Below, one piece after another: positions 11,320-18,589 of a stretch of DNA of 56,282 bases. The stretch is from positions 1 through 56,282 of the forward strand of contig NZ_QLTS01000012.1 in NCBI RefSeq assembly GCF_003269275.1, read 5' to 3'. Each line of letters opens with the position of its first letter. The stretch's first letter is position 1. The stretch is from Phascolarctobacterium faecium DSM 14760. GTDB lineage: Bacteria; Bacillota; Negativicutes; Acidaminococcales; Acidaminococcaceae. Both the position numbers and the translations under genes were made by a program. The notes beneath the pieces are model-generated. The model made no database searches. It was not told where the DNA came from and was given only the letters and a program-made list of their open reading frames with translations.

Positions 11320-12381
11320 TTAACCTAACATAAATAACCTTATTTGCTTTTCCATACAATCAACAATACTGTCATTTTGCTCATAAACCTTAGCCCATTC
11401 TACCGTCTTAACCACAGCTTCTGTTATCTGCCATCTTGGTCCCCATCCAAAAGTATTTTTTAACTTTGAGCAATCTAATTTTAAAAACTGTGCTTCATGA
11501 GGGCCTTGGTTGCAAACATTCTTCCATGCTTGCCCATTTCCCCATTCTTTACAAAATAAATCTACAAGATCGCCTGTTGTTATACAATCACATTCATCCG
11601 GACCAACATTATAATAGCCCGCAAACTCAATATTTTCACATTGGGCTTTAGCTATCATAAGGTAAACATACAATGGCTCCAACACATGCTGATAAGGTCT
11701 TATAGAATAGGGGTTACGAACAATTATTTCTTGACTTTTATACGCCGCCCTTATACAATCCGGAATAATTCTATTTTCAGCAAAATCACCACCGCCGATT
11801 ACATTTCCTGCTCTTGCTGTGGATATTGCAACTTTTTCATCTTTAAAATAACTGTTTTTATAACAGTGCGTTACAAGTTCAGAACAGCTTTTGCTGTTCG
11901 AATATGGGTCAAAACCATCTAATGGTTCTGTTTCCCTATATCCCCAAATCCATTCTTTATTTTCATAAACTTTATCTGTTGTCACATTTAAAAAAGATTT
12001 CACACAACTGGTATTTCTAACGCATTCAAGAATATTAACTGTCCCCATCACATTAGTAGAGTATGTCCCAACCGGGTCTTTATAGCCTTCCAACACAAGT
12101 GGCTGCGCAGCCAAATGCAAAACTATTTCCGGCTGATATTCATCAAAAACGTTTTTTAAATGTTTATAATCTCTAATATCGCCGATAATAGAAGTTATCT
12201 TTTCTTCAATTTGAGCCATGCGAAAAAATTCCCATCCTTCTACTGTAGGCGATTCCAACGAATAACCAATAATATCAGCACCAAGCATAGTCAAAATTTT
12301 GCAGAGCCAGGTTCCTTTGAATCCAGTATGCCCGGTTACAAGTACTTTTTTCCCTTTATAAAACTCAGAAAATATATTCAT
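11320..12381 (-). CDS. rfbG: CDP-glucose 4,6-dehydratase
   Basis: 353 residues starting MNIFSEFYKGKKVLVTGHTGF, with the start ATG at 12381 overlapping the rfbF stop (ATGA). The in-frame ATGs six and three codons earlier lie inside rfbF and lack a ribosome site. Extended SDR: Rossmann GHTGFKG near residue 17, TTDK at 134-137, catalytic Tyr160 and Lys164 in YSNSK. RAGNVIGGGDFAENRIIPD and RPYQHVLEPL are strong RfbG signatures. It converts CDP-glucose to CDP-4-keto-6-deoxyglucose in the cytoplasm, the entry intermediate for CDP-3,6-dideoxyhexoses and CDP-branched sugars. No gene for the C3 dehydrase (RfbH/E1) is present nearby. Confidence 0.93.
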   Translation of the reverse strand: MNIFSEFYKGKKVLVTGHTGFKGTWLCKILTMLGADIIGYSLESPTVEGWEFFRMAQIEEKITSIIGDIRDYKHLKNVFDEYQPEIVLHLAAQPLVLEGYKDPVGTYSTNVMGTVNILECVRNTSCVKSFLNVTTDKVYENKEWIWGYRETEPLDGFDPYSNSKSCSELVTHCYKNSYFKDEKVAISTARAGNVIGGGDFAENRIIPDCIRAAYKSQEIIVRNPYSIRPYQHVLEPLYVYLMIAKAQCENIEFAGYYNVGPDECDCITTGDLVDLFCKEWGNGQAWKNVCNQGPHEAQFLKLDCSKLKNTFGWGPRWQITEAVVKTVEWAKVYEQNDSIVDCMEKQIRLFMLG

Positions 12382-13157
12382 TCTCCCCATACCTTCCATG
12401 GTGCTTTAACGGTAGACCATAAGCTTTCTAATTCATCTTTTTCACGTTTAGTGTCCATACACTGCCAAAAGCCCTTATGAATATAGCTCATAAGCTCATT
12501 GGCTGCAGCTAATTTTTCAAGCGGACCTCTTTCAAAAACAGTCGCGTCATTTTCCAGATAATCAAAAACTTGTGGTTCCAATACCATAAATCCAGCATTA
12601 ATCGGTGAACTATCCGCAATAGATTTTTCACGAAATGATCTTACTGCATTATCACCGTCAATATTCAAAATACCTTTGGATTGTTCCAACATAACAGCAG
12701 TAAGTGTTGCCAATTTCCCATGGGCTTTATGAAAATCCAACAGTTTTTGAATATTGACATCACATACACCATCGCCATAAGTCATCATAAAAGTTTCGTT
12801 ACCAATATATTTTTGAATCCTTTTTACCCTGCCGCCAGTCATCGTATTTAATCCGGTATCAACAACTGTTACCTTCCAAGGTTCCGTGTGTTGCTTGTGT
12901 ATCACGATTTCGTTCTTTTTGGTAAAGTCAAACGTAACATCACTGGTATGCAAAAAATAATCGGCAAACCATTCTTTGATCATATGCTGTTTATAACCAG
13001 CGCAAATAATAAAATCATTAAAACCATAGAATGAATAGCTTTTCATAATATGCCACAAAATAGGCATCCCACCAATTTCAATCATCGGCTTTGGTTTATA
13101 TTGACTTTCTTCACTTATACGTGTTCCCAATCCCCCGGCAAGAAGAACTACTTTCAT
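12378..13157 (-). CDS. rfbF: Glucose-1-phosphate cytidylyltransferase
   Basis: 259 residues, the usual length of RfbF. The N-terminal LLAGGLGTRISEE and KPKPMIEIGGMPILWHIM form the nucleotidyltransferase signature with the lysine that binds sugar phosphate, and ICAGYKQHMIKEWF, TGLNTMTGGRVKR and MTYGDGVCDV are typical of the cytidylyl-specific branch. Reaction: CTP + glucose 1-phosphate to CDP-glucose + PPi. It feeds the next gene, rfbG, with which it overlaps by four bases. Start supported by GGGAGG eight to nine bases upstream. Composition is intermediate between the AT-rich block to its left and the host-like genes to its right. Confidence 0.95.
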   Translation of the reverse strand: MKVVLLAGGLGTRISEESQYKPKPMIEIGGMPILWHIMKSYSFYGFNDFIICAGYKQHMIKEWFADYFLHTSDVTFDFTKKNEIVIHKQHTEPWKVTVVDTGLNTMTGGRVKRIQKYIGNETFMMTYGDGVCDVNIQKLLDFHKAHGKLATLTAVMLEQSKGILNIDGDNAVRSFREKSIADSSPINAGFMVLEPQVFDYLENDATVFERGPLEKLAAANELMSYIHKGFWQCMDTKREKDELESLWSTVKAPWKVWGE

Positions 13158-13177
13158 AATAAGAAGCCTCCCTTATT

Positions 13178-13798
13178 TTAATATGCACCTTTTTTTCTGA
13201 ATACAACATCAAATGTTTTTATAAGTATCTGGATATCTTTTAGAAAACTTCGATTAACCACATATTCAACATCCAAGGCGACACGTTCCGAATAAGATAT
13301 GTCGCTACGCCCACTAACCTGCCACAGTCCAGTAATGCCAGGTTTTACTGAATAATATTTTTTTATATGTATCCCGTAGCGTGGCACTTCTTCCTGGACA
13401 ATAGGACGTGGTCCAACCAAACTCATTTCTCCCTTTAAAACATTAAAAATCTGCGGCAATTCATCTAAACTGGTCCTTCTTAAAAATTCGCCAATTGGTG
13501 TCACTCTCGGATCATTTTTTAATTTAAAGTCGCGTTCCCACTCCATTCGCGCTTCAGGATTTTCTCTTAAATATTTTTCCAGCATTTGTTTGGCATCAAC
13601 ACACATACTGCGAAATTTATAACATGGAAAAGACTTTCCATTTTTACCAACACGCATATGTTTAAATATTACAGGTCCCGGATCTTCTTTTTTTATCCTG
13701 TACGCTATATAAGCTAAAAGCGGGCTTATACATATCGTTCCTATAAATGTTAATGTAAAATCAAAAATAGTCTTTCCTAATTCACCATCTTTAATCAT
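13178..13798 (-). CDS. Initiating phosphoglycosyl transferase (bacterial sugar transferase, short form)
   Basis: 206 residues from the ATG at 13798 (GGGGTGG about ten bases upstream); a GTG five codons earlier is an alternative without a good ribosome site. A single N-terminal hydrophobic segment (TIFDFTLTFIGTICISPLLAYIA) is followed by the catalytic core of monotopic phosphoglycosyl transferases: FKHMRVGKNGKSFPCYKFRSM, the Asp-Glu pair in SLDELPQIFNVLKGEMSLVGP, and PGITGLWQVSGRS. It moves a sugar 1-phosphate onto undecaprenyl phosphate to start the repeat unit. It lacks the long multi-helix N-terminal region of WbaP and is closer in size to PglC. Donor sugar unknown. Confidence 0.88.
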   Translation of the reverse strand: MIKDGELGKTIFDFTLTFIGTICISPLLAYIAYRIKKEDPGPVIFKHMRVGKNGKSFPCYKFRSMCVDAKQMLEKYLRENPEARMEWERDFKLKNDPRVTPIGEFLRRTSLDELPQIFNVLKGEMSLVGPRPIVQEEVPRYGIHIKKYYSVKPGITGLWQVSGRSDISYSERVALDVEYVVNRSFLKDIQILIKTFDVVFRKKGAY

Positions 13799-13870
13799 TA
13801 CTGCATATTCCACCCCTATGCAATTATTTTGTGATATCTTTTCAATACCTGCGCAGCTTCCATCTCACTT

Positions 13871-14572
13871 CTAGCGACGAATGTCCCCCCCGGATGTACC
13901 ATCGGAACCATAGTAATAGTAGTAACCATAGCCGTGCGTATGGGCCAATTCTACCTTGTTAAGGATAACTCCCAAAATATGTGCTCCTGCCAGCAGCAGC
14001 CTCTGTTTAGCTTCTTTAGCTGCTGCTGGTGTAACTTCGCCGGAGCTGACCAACATGACCAGCCCGTCTACCTTACCAGACAGTACTGCCGCATCCGTTA
14101 CCGGCATGATTGGCGACGTATCGATAAGTATATAGTCATAATCCGGCTTTAGCCGTTCCAGTAACTGTTCCATCCGTTTGCTTCCCAAAAGCTCGGATGG
14201 GTTGGGCGCTACCGGCCCGCTGGCTAAAAGCTCCAGATTCTCTATCCCTGTTTTTTGAATGACTTCCCGCACCTCTTCACTCGCCGAAATGCAGTTGCTC
14301 AGACCTTTATTAGTCAGCTTAAAAAGCTTATGCTGTGTCGGGTTGCGCATATCACAGTCCATTAAAAGCACTTTGTGCCCGGCCTGTGCCATTACCACCG
14401 CCAGATTGCTGATCGTTGTACTTTTACCTTCGTTTGGCGTAGCGCTGGTAACGATGATCGTTTTCAGCTCCTGACCAACGTTGGAGAACTGGATGTTGGT
14501 CCTGATCGTTCTATATGCTTCCGCTACCGGTGATTTGGCATCACGGTCGGCAATCAGTGTTATCGTTTCCAT
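13871..14572 (-). CDS. cpsD: Capsular BY-type tyrosine kinase
   Basis: 233 residues. Walker A SATPNEGKST at residues 43-52, Walker A' LLMDCDMRNP near 69-78, and Walker B YILIDTSP define a bacterial tyrosine kinase of the CpsD/CapB type, separate from its membrane activator as in Gram-positive loci. The C-terminus has a tyrosine cluster (Tyr215 and Tyr217-221 in GYGYYYYYG), the normal autophosphorylation tail. It is activated by the Wzz-like protein encoded just upstream, with which its gene overlaps by 13 bases. The two should cycle with the CpsB phosphatase to control chain length and export. Good ribosome site (GGAGG) before ATG. Confidence 0.92.
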   Translation of the reverse strand: METITLIADRDAKSPVAEAYRTIRTNIQFSNVGQELKTIIVTSATPNEGKSTTISNLAVVMAQAGHKVLLMDCDMRNPTQHKLFKLTNKGLSNCISASEEVREVIQKTGIENLELLASGPVAPNPSELLGSKRMEQLLERLKPDYDYILIDTSPIMPVTDAAVLSGKVDGLVMLVSSGEVTPAAAKEAKQRLLLAGAHILGVILNKVELAHTHGYGYYYYYGSDGTSGGDIRR

Positions 14573-16029
14573 AAGTACCTCCGTAGCCTGGCAGTCAAGC
14601 TTTGCTCCTGCTGTTCTTTTTTCATGTTTTTATTCAATGATTCATAATCCGGCACCGAGCCCAGAACAGGCAGGTCCAGATAGTTTGCTACATCGTCCGT
14701 TGTCTTTATGGTTCTGTTCATCAGTTCTTTGGCAATAACAAAGCCGCTGCCGCCGAAGATTCCCAAAAAGGCTGCCAAAAGCAGGGTCAAAAGCTTTTTC
14801 GGTTTTACCGGGTCTTCCGGCAGTGTGGCCGTATCTACTACCTGTACCTCGGTGGATACCGCTACTTCGGCTACCTTGGCTTCTTCCAGGCGTTTGGCCA
14901 GCATGATGTAAATTTCATCGGCAACGCTGACGTCACGCATCAGGCTCAGGTATTTCTGTTCTTTCTCGGAAAGCCGTTCTACGTCTTCCTGATTTCTTTT
15001 ATCCAGACGCTCCAGCTCGGCAAGGTTGCTTTCGGCTACGCTGATCGCCGCTTCGCTGCCGAATTTACTGGTCAGCAGCTGCTGGTGCACTGGGTTATCC
15101 GACGGCGCCTGCAGTGAGGCTACTTTGGCTATTTCCTGCTGCAGCTTGCTTTTTAAATTGGCGATAGCGTCTTCTGTTTCGATGACTTTAGGATGTTTGG
15201 CTGTATATTTGTCCAGATAGTCTATCCTCTGGGTCTCCAGTTCGGCTAATTTTGCATTATACTGCTTGATAACTGCGTTATCCGCTGTCGCTTTGGCTTC
15301 GCCGCCCAGCTGCTGGTCTGTTGCTGACAGCTGTGCCTGCGCTGTGGCAAGCGCCACTTTGTTTTCTGCACGCAGTTTATCGACGATCCCCATTTTATCG
15401 GCCGCCAACTTCATTTCGTCCGTCGGTGACAGGATCTTGCTGGCTTTTTTATATTCGGTCAGCGCACTTTCGGCTGCTTCAAGCTCGGCTTTAGAGGCTA
15501 CGACTCGCTCTTCGATAAAGGCGCGGGTAGTTTTCTGTTCTTCACGTACCAGACTGGTCAACCGCTGCAAAAAGCCGTTAACGATCAGGTCGTTGGCTTT
15601 CTGGGCCCCTTCCGGCGTATTAGCGTTGACTGTAACTTTTAAGATCTCGGTATCTTTAAAAGGATTGGTAACTATCCTGTTTTTGATATAATCTTCATAA
15701 CGCATATATTTGCCGTCACTGTCGGCTTCTTCCGTCTGTTCAATGACCGGGGCGATGACGCTGCGGCTTTTTAAGATTTCCGCATAGGTGCTCATCAGCT
15801 GTTTGCTGGCCATGGCATTGCCCATAGGCATGCTTTCTAAAAGCGACGAGCCTATCCCTTTGGGCTGCTTGATGCGCAGCAGCGAATCTGATTCGTAGAC
15901 CGGTGAAGCTATAAGCAAATACAGCCCGGCGGCGACTATGCATCCGCCCGTGACTTTAGCGATGAACCTTGCGTTTTTCTGCACTATATGCGCCAGCTCG
16001 CGCAGGTCGATTGTGATTTCCTCTTCCAC
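14560..16029 (-). CDS. wzz: Chain-length determinant / kinase activator (Wzz-like, PCP family)
   Basis: 489 residues from the GTG at 16029, chosen because AGGAGA is six bases upstream and it avoids overlap with the export gene; the open frame continues 28 codons further without a ribosome site. Two membrane helices flank the protein (near residues 24-42, and about 410-430 around LLTLLLAAFLGIFGGSGFVIA), with a long periplasmic region rich in coiled coil between them. The segment just before the second helix contains PEDPVKPKK, the PCP-family Pro-rich motif. The cytoplasmic tail probably contacts CpsD. The periplasmic coiled coil is of the length seen in PCP-2 export proteins. Confidence 0.9.
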   Translation of the reverse strand: MEEEITIDLRELAHIVQKNARFIAKVTGGCIVAAGLYLLIASPVYESDSLLRIKQPKGIGSSLLESMPMGNAMASKQLMSTYAEILKSRSVIAPVIEQTEEADSDGKYMRYEDYIKNRIVTNPFKDTEILKVTVNANTPEGAQKANDLIVNGFLQRLTSLVREEQKTTRAFIEERVVASKAELEAAESALTEYKKASKILSPTDEMKLAADKMGIVDKLRAENKVALATAQAQLSATDQQLGGEAKATADNAVIKQYNAKLAELETQRIDYLDKYTAKHPKVIETEDAIANLKSKLQQEIAKVASLQAPSDNPVHQQLLTSKFGSEAAISVAESNLAELERLDKRNQEDVERLSEKEQKYLSLMRDVSVADEIYIMLAKRLEEAKVAEVAVSTEVQVVDTATLPEDPVKPKKLLTLLLAAFLGIFGGSGFVIAKELMNRTIKTTDDVANYLDLPVLGSVPDYESLNKNMKKEQQEQSLTARLRRYLWKR

Positions 16030-16045
16030 TTTATCTCTCCTCAGG

Positions 16046-16699
16046 TCAGTCGTTATTTTTGATTTCCGATACCATGTATGCGCCGCTGATGAAGGGCATG
16101 ATGTCACGCCCAATATCTATCTTGCCGTTGCTGGTCAGATACAGGCAGTCGCCTTCGTTTAAAACGTAGTTTTGGCTCTGGTCGGATTTTTTTAGAAAAT
16201 TATTGATATTGACCAGTACAGGTTCTTCCGCACCTTTTCTGATCAGAAAGATTTTCTTTTTGGCGGCTTTTTCTGTAAAGCCTTCCGCTTTTCCCAGGGC
16301 ATCTAATACGCGGTGGCTTTTTTCAAGCTCGTACAGTCCCGGTTTTTTTACTTCCCCCAGCACATAGACACGCGTCGTTCCCAGCTTTAAGATATTAACG
16401 CTGACCTGCGGCCTGACAAGGTATTCGGCCAGACTCACTTCCAGTTGCCGCGTAAATTCTGTTACTGTTTTTCCTGTCACGTCTATATCGCCGATCAGGG
16501 GAAAGGTTACTTTTCCATCAGGGCGTACTGTATAGGGGGTAGTGTTGCTGTTGGGCGGGCTGCTCAGATCTTCATGTCCATAGACTACTACCTGCAGCTG
16601 GTCGCCGGGACACATAATATAGTCGTTGTCTGCTGCTGACGCTACTACCAGTCCCTGCAGACTCAGCGCCAGGGTCAACGCCAGAATTGTTTTCTTCAT
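16046..16699 (-). CDS. wza: Polysaccharide export protein (Wza-like), non-lipidated
   Basis: 217 residues from the ATG at 16699, with AAGGAGA upstream; an earlier in-frame ATG at 16750 overlaps cpsB and would put a polar stretch before the signal. A clear Sec signal (MKKTILALTLALSLQGLVVASA) precedes DYIMCPGDQLQVVVYGHEDL and YTVRPDGKVTFPLIGDI, the Poly_export domain, followed by one SLBB domain (TRVYVLGEVKKPGLYEL). E. coli Wza is a lipoprotein with an outer-membrane helix; here there is no lipobox cysteine at the cleavage site and no C-terminal amphipathic helix is obvious. It probably forms a periplasmic export ring, and how it crosses the outer membrane is not clear. Confidence 0.88.
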   Translation of the reverse strand: MKKTILALTLALSLQGLVVASAADNDYIMCPGDQLQVVVYGHEDLSSPPNSNTTPYTVRPDGKVTFPLIGDIDVTGKTVTEFTRQLEVSLAEYLVRPQVSVNILKLGTTRVYVLGEVKKPGLYELEKSHRVLDALGKAEGFTEKAAKKKIFLIRKGAEEPVLVNINNFLKKSDQSQNYVLNEGDCLYLTSNGKIDIGRDIMPFISGAYMVSEIKNND

Positions 16700-16739
16700 C
16701 GGGATTCTCCTTTTTCTCTTTACTTCAATCTTTAATTTA

Positions 16740-17525
16740 TTATTTGCCAAATAGTTTCTGCCAGAAGCTCTTTGGTTTGTCTTCTAAAAATACTTTGGGC
16801 TGCTTGAGCTCTATTTCCTGATTTTTTAAGATCGCCTGCGGGTTCGTTTCTGTCATCTGCCGCAGTACTTCTTCTCCGGCCAGCTGCCTGATGACCGCCG
16901 CTGCCCGTGACATATCCGTATTGCGTCCTTCGCTGCGGTGCCCGTCCGACCCTAACAGATCGACCAGACCATTTGCCAGCAAGACCTTGGCATTCTCGCA
17001 GACGCTGCTACCGAACATGCCGGTAAAGCTGCCGCTGTTGCACTGCATAAGCATGCCACGCCGCCGCCACAGTAGCAGCAGGTCAGGGTTTTCGCGCAGC
17101 TGCTGATACCTCTCCGGATGGGCAAGGATCGGCATTATCCCCTTCAGCTCCAGCTCATACCAGAATTCATCGGCATAGGCAGGGATTTCTGCCGCCGGTA
17201 GTTCGACCAGCAGATATCTACCGCCGTTTAAACAGTACGCGCCAGTCGCTCCCAGCTCCGGCAAAAGCTCCCAGTTCATCTGCACTTCTGCTCCGGGATA
17301 AAGCATAATATCTATCTGTGCTTCTGCACACAACTGCCGCAGCTGCTGTGTTTTTTCCTTTATTTCTTCCCAGGAAGGCTTATTCGCTCTTTCTATGACG
17401 TGCGGGGTCGCAAAGATAGCTTTAGTCCCGCTTCTGGCCGCAATCTCCAGCATTTGTAACGACATGCACTGATTCTTAGAACCGTCGTCTATATTCCATA
17501 AGATATGTGTATGTGTATCCAGCAA
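16740..17525 (-). CDS. cpsB: Capsular protein-tyrosine phosphatase (PHP family)
   Basis: 261 residues from a TTG start at 17525 with AAAGGTGA just upstream. PHP-fold metal ligands are visible in order: HTH at residues 5-7, IDDGS, ATPHV, the Glu of YPGAEV, AHPERY, and GSDGHR. This is the manganese-dependent CpsB/YwqE/CapC phosphatase that removes phosphate from the tyrosine tail of CpsD and resets the kinase cycle. It is the first gene of the capsule operon, about 105 bases downstream of the proximal promoter. Its stop is 40 bases before the wza start. Normal full length; the C-terminal 35 residues are basic and unconserved. Confidence 0.92.
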   Translation of the reverse strand: MLDTHTHILWNIDDGSKNQCMSLQMLEIAARSGTKAIFATPHVIERANKPSWEEIKEKTQQLRQLCAEAQIDIMLYPGAEVQMNWELLPELGATGAYCLNGGRYLLVELPAAEIPAYADEFWYELELKGIMPILAHPERYQQLRENPDLLLLWRRRGMLMQCNSGSFTGMFGSSVCENAKVLLANGLVDLLGSDGHRSEGRNTDMSRAAAVIRQLAGEEVLRQMTETNPQAILKNQEIELKQPKVFLEDKPKSFWQKLFGK

Positions 17526-17639
17526 ATGATCACCTTTATCTATCTTGAACTTAGTGTTGTTAATTAATTTCGTAATAATTGCAATCTGTATCCTAATGCT
17601 TTAATAAAACAATTAAAATATTTGTTTTATCAACTTTAG

Positions 17640-17667
17640 ATTATACCACACTTGTACCCCCCCACAA
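17640..17667 (-). promoter_or_regulatory. Capsule promoter P1 with G7 tract in spacer
   Basis: On the minus strand TTGTGG (17667-17662) and TATAAT (17645-17640) are separated by 16 bases, and the run of seven G starts inside the -35 box and fills the first part of the spacer. Slippage of one base would give the optimal 17-base spacing. Faces cpsB, leaving a leader of about 105 bases. Confidence 0.65.
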
Positions 17668-17767
17668 GACATAACAGCTTCTAAAATTATATTTCAGTAA
17701 CGTTTTTGCTCTTACTTATATTTTCATCGTACCTGTGCATCAATATTTACAATCTCACTTGCCAGCA
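17641..17767. repeat. Promoter repeat, proximal copy
   Basis: 127-base copy of a duplicated segment that recurs at 17913-18041. The two copies align without gaps except for a cytosine run, 7 C here (17657-17663) and 9 C in the other copy. The 65 bases at the high-coordinate end differ at only three positions, whereas the roughly 28 bases between that block and the -35 box differ at about half the positions. The segment carries a promoter facing the capsule operon. Confidence 0.9.
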
Positions 17768-17911
17768 ACTATTTGTCACCAAAAGTACGAAGCCACAATT
17801 TTGCCGATTTTTTATTCTTATAAGCTATATTTATATCTTAATTATTCAATATTTTCTTACTCATTTTTGTATATTTCCAATACATAAAAACTTCCCTAAT
17901 ATTTTATAATT

Positions 17912-17941
17912 ATTGTACCACGGTTGTACCCCCCCCCGCAA
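17912..17941 (-). promoter_or_regulatory. Capsule promoter P2 with G9 tract in spacer
   Basis: On the minus strand TTGCGG (17941-17936) and TACAAT (17917-17912) are 18 bases apart, with nine G running from the -35 box into the spacer. Same architecture as P1 but two bases longer, so the two copies sit on either side of the ideal 17-base spacing. Initiation here would add about 270 bases of leader before the P1 start region. Confidence 0.6.
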
Positions 17942-18041
17942 GACATAAGCACGTTTTCTTTTATATTTAAGTATACTTTTTGCTCGTACTTATATTTTCA
18001 TCGTACCTGTGCGGCAATATTTACAATCTCACTTGCCAGCA
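17913..18041. repeat. Promoter repeat, distal copy
   Basis: 129-base copy of the segment at 17641-17767, two bases longer only because its cytosine run is 9 (17929-17937) instead of 7. Located 145 bases upstream of the proximal copy in the direction of capsule transcription, same orientation. Confidence 0.9.
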
Positions 18042-18064
18042 CCGCCTCTGCTGACATGCAAAAG

Positions 18065-18092
18065 CCGGACTCTATTCCCATAGAGCCCGGCA
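18065..18092 (-). terminator. Hairpin, possible second terminator of XRE gene
   Basis: GCCGG-CTCTAT paired with ATAGAG-CCGGC, each arm with one extra base, followed on the minus strand by TTTT. It lies just beyond the stronger hairpin at 18097-18132 and would further insulate the capsule promoters from upstream reading. Confidence 0.5.
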
Positions 18093-18096
18093 AAAA

Positions 18097-18132
18097 ATAA
18101 TCGCTCTCAACTTTAGCTGAGAGCGATTATTT
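18097..18132. terminator. Bidirectional terminator between XRE gene and capsule promoters
   Basis: Perfect 14-base arms (AATAATCGCTCTCA / TGAGAGCGATTATT) around an eight-base loop, with an A run on one side and a T run on the other. On the minus strand it ends the XRE regulator transcript 40 bases after the stop codon. Confidence 0.85.
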
Positions 18133-18172
18133 TTTATCTTTTAATCTAACAGCAGTTTCTTCCTACAAGACT

Positions 18173-18376
18173 TTACTTAAAATCTATTTCCTTTCCCAGC
18201 ACCTGCAATATCTTATCCAGCAGATTAACGCTGCAGTTGCATTCCTCCCGTTCGATACGGCCGTAATAATTGACCGACATATTACAGCGTTCGGCCACGT
18301 CGTTTTGGGTCAGCCCCAGCTCCAGCCGCAGCTGGTATAATTTGCGGCCGATGTTATTATAAGTATGCTTGCTCAT
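18173..18376 (-). CDS. XRE-family helix-turn-helix regulator (small)
   Basis: 67 residues, essentially one HTH_3 domain: IGRKLYQLRLELGLTQNDVAERCNMSVNYYGRIEREE is the five-helix lambda-repressor-like DNA-binding fold with the recognition helix around SVNYYGRIE. No effector domain follows. Start supported by GAGGTG before the ATG. Divergent from the sigma-like gene at 18590, sharing a 213-base intergenic region that contains a palindrome. A role controlling the sigma-like gene, itself, or the adjacent capsule promoters is possible but not shown. Confidence 0.8.
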   Translation of the reverse strand: MSKHTYNNIGRKLYQLRLELGLTQNDVAERCNMSVNYYGRIEREECNCSVNLLDKILQVLGKEIDFK

Positions 18377-18453: not shown

Positions 18454-18589
18454 GTATTTCTTATAGCCTACCCCAAAGGTTGTTTACAAAACAAATACAA
18501 AGGCACATACTGAGCCCTGTTATGCATAACGCTTTACAGTACGGCCCGCCGTCATAAAATTATGGGAAGAACTGATATAAATAGCTATT

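Follow-up and report, generated by a model that had tools for sequence, protein, structure and literature searches.

In this commensal-lineage bacterium, a single class of poly-G promoters appears to stand before many of the adhesin genes and before the capsule operon as well. Judged from the sequences, it is a lineage-specific surface-gene promoter class of the Negativicutes, and we lean towards the view that the class is regulated and that slippage in its G run can tune its output. Changes in the length of the run may thus turn surface expression up or down at random, like a volume dial. If slippage does tune the class, it would explain surface diversification, for example against phage and antibody; if it does not, what remains is still a class of promoters for surface genes, with a candidate for its regulator.

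Poly-G promoters of the capsule operon

The window (the whole stretch of 56,282 nt analysed here) contains a capsule operon on the minus strand. Its first gene encodes a CpsB/CapC-type protein (16740..17525; Pfam PF19567), and the later genes (11320..16750, minus strand) encode polysaccharide export, Wzz/GNVR, a CpsD-like ATPase, a sugar transferase, a nucleotidyltransferase and a dehydratase. Before this operon, pairwise comparison delimits a proximal copy (17640..17766, minus strand, about 127 nt) and a distal copy (17912..18041, minus strand, about 129 nt) of a duplicated promoter module. The copies lie 272–274 nt apart and share an ungapped 111-nt core of 85% identity. Alignment confirms the preliminary description in reporting a duplicated segment of 127/129 bases with G tracts of 7 and 9. 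Its further statement that the tract is the only length difference holds from the common left end to the -10, but when the alignment is extended past the -10 more gaps appear, and 117 of 138 columns are identical.

The proximal promoter (17640..17667, minus strand) reads TTGTGG-16-TATAAT with an extended -10 and a total length of 28 nt, which is the mode of the class described below. The distal promoter (17912..17941, minus strand) reads TTGCGG-18-TACAAT, also with an extended -10, and its total of 30 nt is found at no other of the 24 sites in the genome. The spacers of 16 and 18 nt are thus those given earlier. As called in the assembly, the tracts are G7 in the proximal promoter (17657..17663, minus strand) and G9 in the distal one (17929..17937, minus strand), the sister copies of the latter (the proximal copy and a third on contig C9) having G7. 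Each run begins within the -35, as had been proposed, but does not fill the spacer: it spans the last two -35 positions and 5 of the 16 (proximal) or 7 of the 18 (distal) spacer bases. A GTC that forms part of a GTCTTGY motif abuts the -35 in both promoters (17668..17670 and 17942..17944, minus strand). The -35 sequence TTGYGG agrees with TTGACA at only three of six positions, so a generic promoter scan misses both sites.

The third copy of the segment (C9:104404-104556, G7, 88% identical) precedes an ORF that is cut by the contig end and resembles an exopolysaccharide sugar transferase; it is the nearest relative of the distal capsule copy, with 131 of 142 columns identical. Within the window GTCTTGYGGGG occurs twice, compared with 0.05 occurrences expected, and two were reached in 1 of 100 shuffles. 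Both capsule sites are very likely real promoters, because the same architecture recurs throughout the genome and across the class Negativicutes. The principal promoter is probably the proximal G7 copy, whose spacing is modal. The distal copy, whose G9 exceeds both sister copies by two G, would be a length variant through which extra transcription is added or withheld.

Two terminator-like hairpins (18064-18091, minus strand, and 18092-18135; together 18064..18135) separate the promoters from the upstream gene. Upstream of the hairpins lies a small XRE-type HTH gene (18173..18376, minus strand), which is possibly a local regulator. Inside the operon, the CpsD-like ATPase gene (13871-14572) has a further G7 tract (13885-13891, minus strand) just after the part that encodes its tyrosine-rich tail and only a few codons short of its stop; a change in tract length would alter the C-terminus.

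Relatives of cpsB were found as 12 matches in 11 other genomes of the family. Eleven of them (10 genomes) have a readable start, and the twelfth (L367), cut at a contig end, was left out. Up to 700 nt were read upstream of each (196 nt for L360 and 578 nt for L362), and no poly-G promoter was present in these stretches before any of the 11 matches. In several relatives (e.g. L361-L364 and L366) cpsB closely follows another gene, and the operon promoter may therefore sit further up. A poly-G promoter directly before cpsB is accordingly rejected as a general feature (0 of 11 readable relatives): this capsule operon carries a promoter of the class, and the relatives examined show none directly upstream. 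The related-locus search with CpsB returned no named relative, and viral contigs gave 0 matches.

A promoter class of the Negativicutes

In the genome of 2.32 Mb, 24 sites match the pattern GTCTTG(C/T)-G5-9-...-TGNTANNAT. Searching for GTCTTGYGGGG alone likewise gives 24 sites, against 0 for the reversed pattern, and all 24 run on into the extended -10 TGNTANNAT. The core of the class starts with GTCTTGY and continues with a run of 5-10 G, most often 7; a few bases other than G then lead to the extended -10. The runs at the 24 sites have 5 (n=1), 6 (n=3), 7 (n=18), 8 (n=1) or 9 (n=1) G, and the total, counted from TTG through the last base of the -10, is 26 (n=2), 27 (n=8), 28 (n=13) or 30 (n=1) nt. 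With three mismatches allowed, 15 sites were retrieved, and no run among them was interrupted internally. Two of the 15 are near-variants beyond the 24, and in one near-variant the run is shifted by one base. Of all 39 tracts of at least seven G in the genome, 22 stand in the context of a class promoter. Promoter modules, comprising the promoter and its upstream region, are duplicated elsewhere in the genome as well. The promoter arrangement on which the preliminary description based its proposed switch is consequently not specific to the capsule, and we reject the reading as a capsule-specific switch: the 24 sites mostly precede adhesin units, and the duplication before cpsB is that of one module among several.

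Among 84,980 species genomes, a strict form of the pattern was found in 64 stretches, all 64 with Negativicutes titles, and it is on this ground that we call the class lineage-specific. The titles name Phascolarctobacterium, Selenomonas, Mitsuokella, Anaerovibrio, Schwartzia, Succiniclasticum and Veillonella sp. R32, together with higher-rank names; six title names were looked up, and the remainder we take to belong to the Negativicutes. The G runs at these named sites number 7 (n=36), 8 (n=18), 9 (n=7) or 10 (n=3) and the totals are 27 (n=4), 28 (n=52), 29 (n=5), 30 (n=2) or 31 (n=1) nt, a spread that is capped because the strict pattern requires six or more G and admits no total above 31. 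Counting all 88 sites, from this genome and the named ones, 54 have G7. Of 380 Negativicutes genomes, 103 contain a match to a looser pattern, which is an upper figure since the reversed control gave 17 matches and some of the matches look like chance. An initial search of the family found the pattern in 26 of 59 genomes, and the control gave 5 matches; the genus is represented among the searched genomes by this genome alone. The promoters occur in the Acidaminococcaceae and also in the Selenomonadaceae.

At 11 of the 24 sites in this genome and at 21 of the 64 named sites, the left half of the motif recurs as an inverted half-site, CAAGAC, 36-42 nt ahead of GTC; one further named site has CAAGAC at 58. 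Among 23 non-redundant upstream regions it was present in six, all at 36-42 nt, compared with 0.03 by shuffling. Both capsule copies have CAAAAA at 38 nt instead of CAAGAC. GTCTTGY itself adjoins the G tract by design of the search. From this arrangement we infer a DNA-binding regulator of the class; XRE-type proteins encoded in the same units are candidates for binding GTCTTGY.

Surface genes behind the promoters

The units behind 26 sites (the 24 and the two near-variants) were read. Eighteen contain autotransporter, YadA-like (trimeric autotransporter) or two-partner-secretion genes, two of them (L245 and L246) being counted by sequence without a Pfam row that names them. Five contain polysaccharide genes or genes for lipopolysaccharide modification, namely those with Polysacc_synt_2, a sulfatase-family protein and a contig-end sugar-transferase-like ORF, and the two capsule sites; the remaining three (L229, L231 and L244) are of other kinds. 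Autotransporters with PF03797 fall within units behind a class promoter in 14 of 19 cases in this genome, some as later genes and one (C1:695390) in an apparently split ORF, and five have no such promoter. The class thus appears to be surface-wide and not confined to the capsule.

The Pfam scan of the units covered 33 of 39 proteins. HTH_3 was matched in seven of the 33, and XRE-type genes are present in several units, among them L225, L238, L239, L245 and L247. The TibC glycosyltransferase domain was found in two proteins, which by sequence are those before the autotransporters in L232 and L247. In the XRE-TibC-autotransporter unit of L247, the autotransporter is apparently split: a 580-aa ORF stops before the PF03797 barrel, which is in a separate 394-aa open frame (C1:695390-696085). 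In another unit (L230, C1:328000-332400), an Rrf2-type regulator behind a poly-G promoter is spread over two short ORFs and is perhaps a broken gene.

For the strict set including this genome, 88 sites in all, 11 had no ORF behind them (nine with <175 nt left). Of the 77 sites with an ORF, 73 entered the downstream-gene set (L111, L127, which has the same gene as L126, L190 and L199 were left out), and 72 were scanned with Pfam, the reference for L110 being too short. The families behind the promoters include HTH_3 (8 of 72), SLH (6), CoA_binding_3 (4), ShlB (3) and Autotransporter (3); the tallies count members per family, families were assigned to units from sequences and coordinates, and autotransporter domains are under-counted because many of the ORFs were truncated, either at 600 aa or where the locus ends. 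SLH-type outer-membrane proteins stand behind poly-G promoters at L154, L155, L158 and L184 (CANRJC) and at L156 (CANQBR), that is, at least four times in one Phascolarctobacterium assembly and once in another; L154, L156 and L158 are nearly identical.

This genome also has G7 or G8 tracts inside genes, at ends of coding sequence that by eye resemble signal peptides. They occur in genes for four TonB-dependent receptors, in those of two autotransporters and in some others. The tract separates the frame of the signal-peptide-like start from that of the remainder in three cases (a receptor, an autotransporter and another gene), while counterparts are in frame. Because these out-of-frame tracts resemble start-proximal contingency tracts, they make slippage in the lineage more credible. 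The receptor loci are L306 (C11:34300-40000), L312 and L314, and it is the second gene of L306 (G8) whose start and mature part are in different frames in the assembly. The autotransporter of L233 (position 1301 in minus-strand count, C2:224693) lies behind a poly-G promoter and has a second tract, of G8, following its signal-peptide-like start; the passenger is not in the frame of that start, whereas in a comparable gene of L274 (G7) the frame is kept. In L309 (C3:5000-8500), G7 follows a signal-peptide-like start and the downstream ORF is in another frame. Two neighbouring glycosyltransferase genes (Glycos_transf_2, Branch) in L308 (C16:2000-6500) each have G7 inside the coding region.

Tract length and its explanations

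Orthologous promoters were compared in two neighbouring genera, using 11 pairs picked from 29 with a minimum identity of 0.85 on the upstream side and 0.90 on the downstream side. The G-run length differs in 4 of the 11 pairs, or at 3 of 7 loci. The locus of an exopolysaccharide sugar transferase has 7/8, that of an autotransporter-like gene 7/9 and that of a Wzy_C-type protein 9/5. Within the differing pairs the rest of the core is of equal length, leaving uncompensated totals of 26 versus 30, 28 versus 30 (twice) and 28 versus 29 nt. Across 4279 columns of flanking sequence, the orthologous promoters showed 21 gap events (Fisher p 0.0009 versus the G runs) and none of 19 A/T homopolymers of at least six changed length (p 0.012 versus the G runs), p values that are optimistic because the pairs share genomes and are not all independent. 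G runs generally slip more than A/T runs, and G7 is short for a hypermutable tract. Two pairs matched by protein similarity (L351/L355 and L320/L328) have equal tracts and stand outside the count of 11. Tract lengths are therefore not fixed among relatives; fixed lengths in reads and relatives are what the preliminary description had named as evidence against its proposal. The differing pairs come from other loci, and the capsule promoters are not comparable. Such species-level differences do not amount to evidence for switching within a clone.

The total of the core nevertheless has a strong mode of 28 nt, which is the length at 52 of 64 named, 13 of 24 own and 16 of 23 non-redundant sites, and we take this to mean that selection holds the spacing and so limits the freedom of the tracts to vary. 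At the named sites with longer runs, the total stays 28 in 16 of 18 with G8 and 4 of 7 with G9, a neighbouring base having become G. A modal core of 28 nt fits a constrained promoter better than free-running switching. For the earlier claim that slippage sets the level of the capsule operon, the outcome is thus divided: the G run does lie between -35 and -10, and at orthologues its length changes more than do flanks or A/T runs, but the arrangement is not specific to the capsule and is held to a modal 28 nt.

Under the mechanism that we favour, the housekeeping RNA polymerase would use the extended -10 together with the weak -35 TTGYGG, and the regulator would bind GTCTTGY. Replication slippage in the G run would shift both the -35/-10 and the regulator/-10 distance by single bases. 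Since the length of the run would set the distance of the upstream contacts to the -10, slippage would change output in steps, and the resulting differences would be graded, heritable and reversible.

The principal competitor of slippage tuning is a fixed regulon, in which the G run would be a conserved recognition or structural element, contacted by the regulator or as part of the -35, with its length under selection; slippage would be incidental and rare, and the regulator, not chance, would set surface expression. We consider this a serious alternative, of rather less than even probability. The four orthologous pairs that changed length without compensation sit badly with it, as do the range of totals in this genome (26 to 30) and the independent start-proximal tracts with out-of-frame states, yet it accommodates well the modal spacing of 28, the combination of GTCTTGY with inverted upstream CAAGAC, the XRE-type genes of the same units with their HTH_3 matches, the uninterrupted runs at all 15 near-matching sites and the presence of a MutL homologue in the genome. 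Compatible with either slippage tuning or a fixed regulon is the idea that the distal capsule copy is a decaying by-product of module duplication and that the proximal promoter alone matters. Its G9, its 18-nt spacer off the modal spacing and its weaker -10, TACAAT, would agree with decay, and similar modules are duplicated elsewhere; we think it rather unlikely all the same, since the whole motif and the upstream region are kept (the 131 of 142 columns shared with the C9 copy) and the copy lies just downstream of the two terminator-like hairpins, where a first promoter is expected.

Inversion of the promoter segment between flanking inverted repeats was also considered. A 16-nt pair of 88% identity (17619-17634 / 18482-18497) does flank both promoters, but a pair at least as good arose in 21 of 60 shuffles of the region; with the repeats at chance level, an inverton is highly improbable and was rejected. 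That the class reflects chance or an assembly artefact has a negligible probability. Homopolymers can be miscalled, and the reversed control of the looser pattern did find 17 matches (380 genomes) and 5 (59 genomes), but the 24 sites of this genome, where the reversed pattern has none, and recurrence in many other assemblies refute it for the class as a whole; the exact lengths 7 and 9 rest on the assembly. Returning to slippage tuning, a wider version of it, which we put forward tentatively and at a little under even credence, is a phase-variable surface system of diderm Firmicutes. A class built on a slippable G spacer and a shared half-site would have spread by module duplication to units for adhesins, glycosylation and capsule, as many as some two dozen in a genome, and would be backed by the start-proximal tracts in TonB-receptor and adhesin genes; each cell would display a randomly drawn surface, and the regulator would set the overall level.

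To our knowledge, slippage-tuned promoters are known mainly from a few mucosal pathogens, with one gene or a small family in each. The papers cited here provide three precedents. The closest is porA of Neisseria meningitidis, in which poly-G lies between -35 and -10 and promoters with 11G, 10G and 9G differ in expression (PMC3639595); fetA and opc are mentioned alongside it (PMC2791445). As in porA, where changes in length shift the spacing and grade expression, the promoters of this genome have a homopolymer between their predicted -35 and -10 elements, and surface-related units lie behind 23 of 26. The porA-type tests concern single genes, whereas here there are 24 loci of one genome with shorter runs (mostly 7), known from sequence alone, and with a conserved GTCTTGY and an extended -10, in a different phylum. 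In Bordetella fim2, fim3 and fimX, a C-stretch beside the fim box differs in length between strains, with 10-15 (fim2) and 13-18 (fim3) in B. pertussis (PMC1891110). These promoters resemble ours in having a homopolymer beside a conserved element in several related surface-gene promoters of one genome; they differ in their longer tracts and fimbrial subunits, compared with several adhesin classes plus polysaccharides and a regulator that is only a candidate. In N. meningitidis nadA, TAAA repeats lie upstream of the promoter near operators of the repressor NadR (PMC2791445), and in both cases tract length could alter the geometry of a regulator, although our tract is of G within the spacer and our regulator is putative. 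The start-proximal G tracts in outer-membrane protein genes of this genome are like those of Campylobacter and Neisseria contingency genes, which give translational ON/OFF switching; the capsule sites here would act on transcription.

Among the matches listed from the open-access literature, no paper was recognisable by title or abstract as describing the class, and the word 'homopolymer' does not occur in the papers on Veillonella autotransporters (PMC7549365) and invertons (PMC11892184). What is new is one motif across about two dozen loci of one genome, its taxonomic setting and its combination with a conserved half-site.

Two further observations concern variation around the promoters. In related genera, a variant promoter without GTC precedes autotransporter-like genes (L081, L082, L104, L105 and L100), and in most of these loci a short hairpin-like inverted repeat lies ahead of it. 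The upstream regions of L327 and L337 are 97% identical, whereas the proteins encoded next share 37% identity where they align, which suggests that coding cassettes change behind a kept promoter.
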